Positions 8,430-10,952 of a DNA stretch of 64,000 bases are shown piece by piece (within the stretch, counting starts at the first letter, position 1; each line of letters opens with the position of its first letter). The notes beneath the pieces were generated by a model. It saw only the letters and a program-made list of their open reading frames with translations. It did not search any database and was not told the origin of the DNA. A program made the position numbers and the translations under genes. The DNA lies in the NCBI RefSeq assembly GCF_014770435.1, contig NZ_CP061739.1, positions 2,170,001 to 2,234,000 of the forward strand, read 5' to 3'. The stretch comes from Psychrobacter sp. 28M-43. GTDB taxonomy: Bacteria > Pseudomonadota > Gammaproteobacteria > Pseudomonadales > Moraxellaceae.

Positions 8430-8855
8430 TTATTTTTCAGACTTATCTAAATCGATAGATACTGAGTTGATGCAATAGCGCATGCCTGTTGTCTCAGTAG
8501 GACCATCAGGGAATACATGACCCAAATGGGCGCCGCAGTTGCTACAAGTGACTTCGGTACGAGTCATGCCTAGCGAGTTATCAACGTGCTCTTCAATCGC
8601 GCTGTTATCGATACCTTGATCAAAACTTGGCCAGCCACAGCTCGCATCAAATTTATTGCTTGAGTCAAATAAGCTTGCACCGCAGCCTTTACAACGGTAA
8701 ACGCCGTCATCTGTCGCATCATTATATACACCTGTAAATGGACGCTCAGTGCCCTTCTCACGCATAATATGATACTCATCAGCGGTTAAACGCTCTTTCC
8801 AGTCAGCTTCAGTCAACTGGCTGATTTCTTCTTTGCTTAGTTGGTTGTCTTGCAT
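8430..8855 (-). CDS. msrB: Peptide-methionine (R)-S-oxide reductase MsrB
   Basis: The enzyme reduces the R form of methionine sulfoxide in proteins. The 141-residue protein has two zinc CxxC pairs (Cys55/Cys58 in [10 protein letters not shown] and Cys104/Cys107 in [12 protein letters not shown]), and the catalytic Cys128 in [11 protein letters not shown]. The CGWPSFD motif is also present. This is the single-domain, zinc-containing type with no MsrA fusion. AAGGA lies 6-7 nt before the ATG. It is cytoplasmic, as no signal sequence is present, and probably works with the peroxidase downstream. Confidence 0.96.
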
Positions 8856-9145: not shown

Positions 9146-9229
9146 TTGCAAGATATACTTGCAAATACTAATTGAACAGATTGTAAAATCATTTGCAAAT
9201 TAACTATCAATGCAATAATATCTTGCATT
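9146..9229. promoter_or_regulatory. Cluster of three TTGCAA-type palindromes upstream of the XRE-AlaA gene
   Basis: Three palindromes built on the same core lie in 84 bp: ttgcaag-N5-cttgcaa (9146-9164), atttgcaaat (9191-9200) and aatgcaa-N7-ttgcatt (9209-9229). They end 71 bp before the start of a gene whose product begins with an XRE-type helix-turn-helix domain, so autoregulation is a reasonable inference. The rest of 8856-9299 is AT-rich and shows no gene. Confidence 0.6.
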
Positions 9230-9299
9230 AGTGTTCGACTAAAATGTTTAATATATCTCTACACTGAATATTTACTGATTAATAAAGGTTCAAACAACA

Positions 9300-10952
9300 A
9301 TGTCTAACGACAATAGTAAAAGTACGCAAGCGGAACGACTGGTACAGTTGCGCCGTGACAAAGGATTTACTGCTGAGCAGCTAGCACAAGTCATGACAGC
9401 CGCTGGTGCAAAAGTGAGTCGTGGTGCTATCTCAAACTGGGAACGCGGTACCAACGGTATTGTCTCATCCAAGCTACCTACACTCGCACGTATTTTGGGC
9501 TGTAGTGAGGGATATCTGTTGCGCGGCGACCTCAACAATGAGGCTATTGATGCAGACGAGTCGACATCATCTGTAAAGCGCAGTGAACGTCAAGAGATAG
9601 ATACGGCTTCACACACACAGTCAGGTATTAAGACAACTGATGCTCAGTCCACGATAACTTCTACTGCTGGTAAAGAATCAAAAACCAATTCGACAACCAA
9701 TCCGAAAAACGGTCATGCTATGAACACCATAAAAAAATCTGATAAATTACAAAACGTTTGCTATGACATTCGTGGTCCTCTATTGCAGACTGCTAATAAG
9801 ATGGAAGCAGAAGGCAAACGCATATTAAAACTAAACGTGGGTAATCCAGCGCCCTTTGGTTTAGAAGCCCCGCATGAGATTTTGCGTGATGTCGCTATGA
9901 ATCTATCTGAGGCAACTGGCTATTCAGACTCGCAGGGGATTTTCTCAGCACGCAAGGCCATTTTGCAATATTACCAATCAAAAGGATTGCTGTCGGCCGT
10001 TGACGTACGTGACGTATATTTGGGCAATGGGGTTTCTGAGCTTATTGTCATGACCATGCAGGCGTTGATGAATGATGGCGATGAAGTCCTGATTCCAATG
10101 CCAGACTACCCGCTTTGGACGGCAGCAGCCAACCTCGCTGGCGGTACTGCTGTGCACTATCGCTGTAATGAAGAAGATAACTGGCACCCTGATATTGAAG
10201 ATATTAAGTCTAAAATCACGAGTAAAACAAAGGGTATCGTGGTTATTAACCCAAACAACCCGACAGGCTCACTTTATAGTGATGAGCTATTAAAGCAAAT
10301 CATCGAAGTTGCTAAAGAGCATGATTTGATCATCATGGCCGATGAGATTTACGATCGTATTCTCTATGATGATAATATACATACCCCAATGAGCACCCTA
10401 ACTGACGACGTGCTGGTACTTTCTTATAATGGCTTGTCAAAGTCACATCGTATCGCAGGATTTCGCTCAGGTTGGATGATGGTATCAGGCCGCAAACAGC
10501 ACGCAGCTGACTTTATTGAAGGCTTAGATATGCTAGCATCCATGCGCCTTTGCTCTAATGTGCAAGGACAGTATGCTATTCAAACAGCGATGGGTGGACA
10601 TCAGAGCATGCAAGACCTGACTTCTGAAAAGGGTCGCCTATATAAGCAACGTGAAATGGCAGTCTCACGTCTTAATGCTATCAAAGGTATTTCTTGTACC
10701 ATGCCTCAAGGCGCGTTTTACTGTTTTCCAAAAATGGATCCAGAGGTTTACCCTATCACCGATGATATGGACTTTATGATGGATTTGCTCGTTGAAGAAA
10801 ACGTATTGATGGTTCAAGGTACTGGTTTTAACTGGGACAGACCCGATCATTTCCGTCTGGTGTTCTTACCTAACTTGCTTGACCTAGAAAATGCGATGGA
10901 TAGGTTGGACAGATTTTTTGCCAAGAAACGTAAGCAATTTGGTACTGAGTAA
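9300..10952 (+). CDS. alaA: XRE helix-turn-helix domain fused to AlaA-type alanine aminotransferase
   Basis: Residues 13-78 form a Cro/CI-type helix-turn-helix (RLVQLRRDKGFTAEQLAQVM, then GAISNWERG, then LARILGCSEGYLLRG). Residues 79-140 are a Ser/Thr/Lys-rich linker. From Met141 to the end, 410 residues match E. coli AlaA (405 residues) almost throughout: KLQNVCYDIRGPLLQTA, LKLNVGNPAPFGLEAP, NPNNPTGSLYS, ADEIYDRILYDD and the PLP lysine in NGLSKSHRIAGFRSGW. AlaA makes alanine from pyruvate and glutamate. This is not the MocR layout, which uses a GntR-type wing-helix and has lost transaminase function; here the enzyme half looks intact. No good ribosome-binding site precedes Met141, so the fusion start at 9300 is preferred. 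The protein may sense amino acids or PLP; that is inference. Confidence 0.9.
   Translation: MSNDNSKSTQAERLVQLRRDKGFTAEQLAQVMTAAGAKVSRGAISNWERGTNGIVSSKLPTLARILGCSEGYLLRGDLNNEAIDADESTSSVKRSERQEIDTASHTQSGIKTTDAQSTITSTAGKESKTNSTTNPKNGHAMNTIKKSDKLQNVCYDIRGPLLQTANKMEAEGKRILKLNVGNPAPFGLEAPHEILRDVAMNLSEATGYSDSQGIFSARKAILQYYQSKGLLSAVDVRDVYLGNGVSELIVMTMQALMNDGDEVLIPMPDYPLWTAAANLAGGTAVHYRCNEEDNWHPDIEDIKSKITSKTKGIVVINPNNPTGSLYSDELLKQIIEVAKEHDLIIMADEIYDRILYDDNIHTPMSTLTDDVLVLSYNGLSKSHRIAGFRSGWMMVSGRKQHAADFIEGLDMLASMRLCSNVQGQYAIQTAMGGHQSMQDLTSEKGRLYKQREMAVSRLNAIKGISCTMPQGAFYCFPKMDPEVYPITDDMDFMMDLLVEENVLMVQGTGFNWDRPDHFRLVFLPNLLDLENAMDRLDRFFAKKRKQFGTE

Follow-up and report, generated by a model that had tools for sequence, protein, structure and literature searches.

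Why does an alanine transaminase carry the DNA-binding domain of a repressor, and does it act through that domain on its own gene? The question arises in Psychrobacter sp. 28M-43, where we analysed a stretch of 64,000 nucleotides (NZ_CP061739.1, positions 2,170,001 to 2,234,000; hereafter the window). The original prediction described a complete AlaA joined by a polar linker to a Cro/CI-type (XRE) domain, with three TTGCAA palindromes upstream, and proposed that the protein could repress its own gene. Comparison with relatives leads us to a similar answer: XRE-AlaA is most likely a transaminase that represses its own gene via predicted operators (probability about 0.8), and the enzyme probably limits its own production. 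The gene and its parts are:

9283 to 9288, plus strand: TAAAGG, Shine-Dalgarno-like by its position ahead of the first Met
9300 to 10952, plus strand: XRE-AlaA fusion gene, an open reading frame of 550 amino acids with orthologues across the genus
9333 to 9527, plus strand: Cro/CI-type (XRE) domain, residues 12-76, from Pfam
9417 to 9449, plus strand: SRGAISNWERG, residues 40-50, presumed recognition-helix region, placed by analogy
9546 to 9710, plus strand: variable polar linker, residues 83-137
9711 to 10922, plus strand: AlaA transaminase domain, residues 138-541, from the alignment to 4cvq; PLP lysine K381 in GLSK

Both halves of the fusion were recognised by homology, as predicted. In a Pfam search with the whole protein, HTH_3 scored above its cut-off (23.8 bits, cut-off 23) and HTH_19 below (28.7 bits, cut-off 30.2), and with the N-terminus alone both passed (HTH_19 33.1, HTH_3 28.7). 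The domain also matched HTH_31 and phage repressor families, the P22 C2 repressor being its best PDB relative (E 8e-5), and no GntR model stood among the matches listed. Residues 138-541 found E. coli AlaA (4cvq) as best PDB match over the full-length catalytic domain (E 3.3e-166), and the NPNNPTG and ADEIYD motifs and the PLP lysine are present in the alignment. Thus, the transaminase half is an intact AlaA domain by sequence, with predicted activity. The NCBIfam alanine aminotransferase equivalog PRK08363 scored 349.7 bits against a cut-off of 534, a model perhaps built from other lineages; the second-closest aminotransferase in the same genome is 28% identical.

Selection acts very differently on the three segments, with median dN/dS among Psychrobacter loci of 0.039 for the XRE domain, 0.013 for AlaA and 0.71 for the linker (600 random pairs, of which a dS filter kept 56, 57 and 53, respectively). 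Such strong purifying selection on the XRE codons points to a translated domain under constraint, next to a drifting linker with a median identity of 38%, and indirectly rules out a start only at Met141, which would leave the N-terminus untranslated. S40, I44, N46, W47 and E48 are invariant across 94 XRE loci, and the linker varies from 27 to 81 residues in 94 XRE loci. Shine-Dalgarno-like matches precede the first Met in 76 of 98 XRE loci and an inner Met in 26 of 46, counts that do not discriminate between the starts. Enzyme and DNA-binding domain therefore lie in one constrained chain.

The upstream region carries two inverted repeats with the common pattern TGCAA-N7-TTGCA, arranged around a putative promoter:

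9146 to 9164, no strand: distal dyad TTGCAAG-ATATA-CTTGCAA, perfect, found by inspection and comparison across loci
9193 to 9198, plus strand: putative -35 hexamer TTGCAA, 17 nt upstream of the -10
9210 to 9228, no strand: proximal dyad ATGCAA-TAATATC-TTGCAT (ATGCAATAATATCTTGCAT), the best conserved dyad in the comparison across loci
9216 to 9221, plus strand: putative -10 hexamer TAATAT, within the proximal dyad

The TTGCAA hexamers of the original prediction do exist, at 9146, 9159 and 9193, but they are not three palindromes: the first two are the arms of the distal dyad and the third is the putative -35, and the proximal dyad had been missed. We rejected an enrichment of TTGCAA as such in the window (31 found, 42.4 expected). 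A TTGnnn lies exactly 17 nt upstream in 77 of 77 proximal-dyad matches, and TAATAT in the middle of this dyad is therefore assigned as the -10; a generic promoter scan gave one candidate in the region against 3.1 in shuffled sequence, so the promoter assignment rests on conservation. Since the proximal dyad encloses the -10, a protein sitting there would cover it. A dyad operator of 17 bp is typical of the Cro/CI repressor class. No helical phasing of the two dyads was established, their spacing being 52-82 bp with a mode of 64 (P 0.06).

Orthologous loci in relatives were marked by the divergent gene upstream of alaA, which served as query and which we take to be msrB-like from its sequence:

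8430 to 8855, minus strand: divergent msrB-like open reading frame

The XRE domain was found in all 105 same-genus genomes examined (100 aligned from residue 10 or earlier and the other five were read individually), and in the inspected loci of genera g27, g28, g29, g32 and g35 (Moraxella-like), L300 excepted. Other genera carry different N-termini on the same enzyme. In g23 and g25, AlaA begins with a domain starting 'MSQKKS...' (SQKK); g23 is Acinetobacter, its protein being 88.7% identical to Acinetobacter baumannii records, and a match over the whole domain was seen in at least 118 of 173 g23 genomes, with a short AlaA of about 415 residues in others. A third domain, '...DPNFVGELKKGR' (FVGEL), occurs in g37, and a fourth extension, starting MYFVNKKN (MYFV), in four loci of g26 (L245, L246, L247 and L257); for the latter, no Pfam match above cut-off was found and no operator was recognised upstream. 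AlaA has no N-terminal extension in the inspected loci of g24, g30, g31, g33, g34 and g36. Of the AlaA N-termini from outside the family, 36 were inspected and none matched the XRE, SQKK or FVGEL profile, these being a subset of the matching genomes chosen for long open frames and best matches, so that rarer cases are possible.

For the comparison of domains with upstream DNA, we assembled 213 distinct loci with up to 350 bp upstream, each of which had to differ from the rest in its first 300 nt and to have 150 bp or more of upstream sequence. They comprise 98 XRE, 54 SQKK, 7 FVGEL and 4 MYFV loci and 50 without any of these (22 Acinetobacter, 9 from other family genera, 16 from outside the family, L300, the paralogue L163 and L002, another aminotransferase). 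The msrB-like gene lies divergently upstream in 87 of 98, 53 of 54, 7 of 7, 4 of 4 and 34 of 50 of these groups, respectively, and was not seen in most of the remaining loci of the set.

The original prediction had called for a survey of AlaA in Moraxellaceae for the XRE domain and co-occurring sites, and domain and sites were found to co-occur. The XRE dyad was present in 87 of 98 XRE loci (against about 0.15 of 98 in shuffled sequence) and in 0 of 115 others, SQKK direct repeats in 53 of 54 SQKK loci and 0 of 159 others, and ATAGG-N6-CCTAT in 7 of 7 FVGEL loci and 0 of 206 others, with shuffled means of at most 0.25 loci per group for all three patterns; these counts are associations and not independent trials, since the patterns were picked after reading the loci and the loci share descent. 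One comparison of upstream dyads omitted duplicates and loci with less than 250 bp upstream. Domain and site are also absent together: in L300 (G270, genus g35), AlaA lacks the XRE domain although its genus is an XRE genus, and the dyad is missing as well, and the SQKK repeats occur in 0 of the 22 Acinetobacter loci without the SQKK domain. An operator-like site in the target promoter thus co-varies with the domain. The 11 XRE loci without an exact dyad are L041, L124, L131, L133, L134, L135, L136, L145, L149, L243 and L244, most of them from the outlying genera g27, g28, g29 and g32; in L131, L133 and L145 a dyad is present that departs from the pattern at a single position. L041, from Psychrobacter, has an intact fusion and no dyad in its 182 bp of upstream sequence, which differs from that of near relatives, perhaps through a contig end or a rearrangement.

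The Acinetobacter domain offers a second view of the same arrangement. It has a profile match to StbA of R388 (7pc1, E 1e-6) and is thus related to it in sequence. GCAA-N7-GCAA lies upstream in 35 of 35 SQKK loci examined, and the first two repeats are 11 bp apart in 11 of 11 among the SQKK loci listed. A strict form of the repeat pair is found in 33 of 60 Acinetobacter genomes, always as a single copy, against 0 occurrences of the reversed control; a comparison by eye placed 32 of these some 95-115 bp upstream of alaA in the same orientation, the 33rd being in G230, where alaA is split. A -10-like hexamer follows 14-15 nt after the proximal repeat in 52 of 52 Acinetobacter loci with such a repeat. 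Stand-alone relatives of the domain number 25 on Acinetobacter, Moraxella and Psychrobacter plasmids, 36-54% identical among the matches listed. Twelve of these were examined, the other 13 being Moraxella bovis records with the same match, and GCAA-N7-GCAA was found within 260 bp upstream in 9 of the 12 (8 of 11 distinct upstream regions; shuffle rate 0-12.5% per plasmid locus), the three without it all being Psychrobacter plasmids. The Moraxella bovis plasmid loci L336 and L337 have identical upstream DNA containing GCAAAAAGTTAGCAA, close to the alaA repeat GCAAAAAGTAAGCAA. Domain family and repeat therefore go together outside alaA too.

Several further observations were made on these loci. 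In L336 and L337, a 'hypothetical protein' adjoining stbB resembles an unannotated StbA, with an upstream array of GCAAA repeats spaced by 11 bp. In L162 (G230:C1 near 1736487-1738032), the Acinetobacter alaA appears in two matches and looks interrupted, with its repeat pair retained, and L163 (G234:C47) is an additional AlaA-like gene that is more distant, at 58% identity and on a long branch in the tree. Acinetobacter loci without SQKK (L223-L242, L143 and L157) have an inverted repeat AGATT-N10..16-AATCT upstream of alaA in 21 of 22 cases, mostly as ATAGATT...AATCTAT, which is absent from 35 SQKK loci and may serve another factor as its operator or form a hairpin in the leader. TALE repeats were rejected as relatives of SQKK, for they outrank StbA only by summed pieces, none of which passes alone. 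A close phage relative of the XRE domain was likewise rejected: the two best hits, in Moraxella phages Mcat18 (L324) and Mcat15 (L325) at 54.8%, are XRE-AlaA itself, and genuine phage proteins are 37-42% identical to the domain among the matches listed. Beyond the annotated attL, both phage records contain an XRE-AlaA gene with no CDS annotated there, either as Moraxella catarrhalis host DNA in the record or because the attachment site lies beside alaA; the dyad is present in L325.

How would such a protein act? AlaA acts as a dimer. We propose that this dimer would present two XRE domains to one dyad, and that binding over the -10 box, perhaps aided by the upstream dyad, would block RNA polymerase, so that the AlaA level would be held by negative feedback. 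Other genera have unrelated DNA-binding domains at this locus, accompanied in each case by a different operator-like repeat, and these domains seem to act likewise. The self-repression of the original prediction is supported by comparison, through the dyads on the gene's own promoter and their co-occurrence with the domain, and is the best reading of the sequences. The effector part of that proposal fares less well. If the repressor were gated by ligand, its DNA binding would be switched by the active-site state (PLP/PMP, alanine, pyruvate or glutamate), as that of PutA is by substrate. By analogy with AlaA in general, for which this is established, the fused enzyme would bind the relevant metabolites, and trigger enzymes are described as acting on transcription when substrate is absent (PMC8249747). 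Against this, if mildly, speak a linker that is conserved neither in sequence nor in length and the presence of three different domains on one enzyme, which together make a dedicated allosteric interface unlikely. Ligand gating is therefore possible but rather doubtful, and we favour simple sensing of the enzyme's own level, given the drifting linker and the apparent use of unrelated, exchanged domains to the same end in other genera.

The remaining alternatives concern what the domain does at the dyads. The link between protein and dyad comes from sequence comparison, and 11 of 98 XRE loci have no exact dyad; the dyads might belong to another transcription factor, with the XRE domain doing something else. 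Yet each of three unrelated domains co-varies with a repeat of its own, domain and repeats are jointly absent in 22 of 22 Acinetobacter loci, and plasmid relatives of the Acinetobacter domain have the same repeat upstream, all of which makes this improbable. Activation of alaA rather than repression would suit the distal dyad, which lies upstream of the -35 in a place open to activators, but we give it little chance, as the best conserved dyad encloses the -10 and the proximal Acinetobacter repeat stands 14-15 nt before a -10-like hexamer. XRE proteins commonly have several targets, and XRE-AlaA might regulate a wider set of genes or tether the enzyme to the chromosome; weak sites may exist elsewhere, a 3-mismatch search of the 3.1 Mb genome returning 230 places against 105 in the control, too loose for use. 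TGCAA-N7-TTGCA occurs nine times in that genome against eight in the reversed control; two of the nine are the alaA dyads, and six of the other seven lie inside open reading frames of at least 100 amino acids. In 40 Psychrobacter genomes, the stricter TGCAAG-N5-CTTGCA has 45 sites in 36 genomes (reversed control, 0), of which 36 are at alaA and nine at scattered places. Coordinates placed 35 of the 36, at 102-338 bp upstream of the first aligned alaA codon, and the one in G018 was placed by reading locus L299. G001, G015, G024 and G026 (L022, L015, L014 and L018) have no exact distal-type site; they keep the proximal dyad and have a distal dyad with a mismatch. With exact sites elsewhere at control level in the own genome and scattered in the 40 genomes, we rejected a regulon, and a wider role is very improbable. 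Repression of its own gene by XRE-AlaA thus stands as the preferred reading.

The history of the locus suggests that domain and operator moved together. In a tree of 52 aminotransferase domains, the g37 sequences group in a supported clade surrounded by genera without extensions, and the XRE, SQKK and MYFV genera stand apart from it on a side that has full support. Both g28 and the Psychrobacter side have XRE, and SQKK and MYFV fall close by; XRE is thus either older there and was later replaced, or was gained twice. By sequence, at least three acquisitions (XRE, StbA-like and FVGEL) are needed; a common fold of FVGEL and XRE is possible, yet they fall in separate clades and have different operators. 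If the 5' part of an autoregulated gene was fused to alaA together with its operator, both would be gained in one step, an inference best supported for SQKK. No donor was found for XRE, the closest phage hits being XRE-AlaA itself and the plasmid hits distant, and the FVGEL domain had no match in the phage search. On balance we lean towards a general account, in which one enzyme gene, at one locus within one family, would have come under feedback of its own on three or more separate occasions. It would each time have captured the 5' portion of an autoregulated regulator along with the promoter-operator (in Acinetobacter, from a plasmid stbA-like gene), and loss of both would have released it again. 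AlaA would then serve as a natural chassis on which self-limiting enzymes arise, with its dimer standing in for the dimer domain of the regulator.

To conclude, XRE-AlaA can be set beside several known systems. MocR/GabR proteins have a GntR-type winged helix and a mostly non-catalytic aminotransferase-like domain. Like them, XRE-AlaA has a helix-turn-helix before a fold-type I aminotransferase-like domain; unlike them, it has a Cro/CI domain and intact AlaA motifs, and is thus by sequence not a MocR protein, as originally proposed. With E. coli AlaA (4cvq) it has the catalytic domain in common, the DNA-binding extension being found only in XRE-AlaA of the two. The P22 C2 and Cro/CI repressors are the nearest relatives of its N-domain, although XRE-AlaA has no peptidase or phage context and the AlaA dimer would take the place of the regulator's dimer domain. 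PRK13355, 'bifunctional HTH-domain containing protein/aminotransferase', presumably names this architecture, as an automatic label without operators. StbA of R388 is the counterpart of the Acinetobacter domain: its plasmid has 9-bp direct repeats spaced by 2 bp (PMC3098194), matching the 11-bp period of the Acinetobacter repeats, and a Moraxella bovis plasmid relative adjoins stbB; the Acinetobacter domain differs in being fused to a chromosomal AlaA and in its repeat sequence (R388: TTGCATCAT). In the open-licence PMC literature, as far as our search covered it, we found no paper on an XRE-AlaA fusion, on PRK13355 or on a helix-turn-helix-bearing AlaA in Acinetobacter or Psychrobacter, nor any description of domain and operator being exchanged together at a single enzyme locus.

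The closest functional parallel is with PutA, NadR and BirA, which have been named as trigger enzymes with a DNA-binding domain, PutA being described as a proline dehydrogenase and transcriptional repressor (PMC8249747). XRE-AlaA likewise has a metabolic enzyme and a DNA-binding domain in one chain and, by its predicted operators, would work as these enzymes do; unlike them, it is a transaminase, domain and operator have been exchanged jointly from genus to genus, and level-sensing is favoured over a ligand switch. If true, our reading would account for a promoter element that is conserved in Psychrobacter, Moraxella and Acinetobacter, and the domain swaps made by nature could serve as material for building synthetic feedback control. 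It makes testable whether ligand coupling is required in trigger enzymes, or whether a DNA-binding domain tethered to an enzyme dimer is enough. It would also add an enzyme-repressor fusion to the short list of PutA, NadR and BirA, with the unusual feature that repeated domain exchange is matched by operator exchange at one locus.
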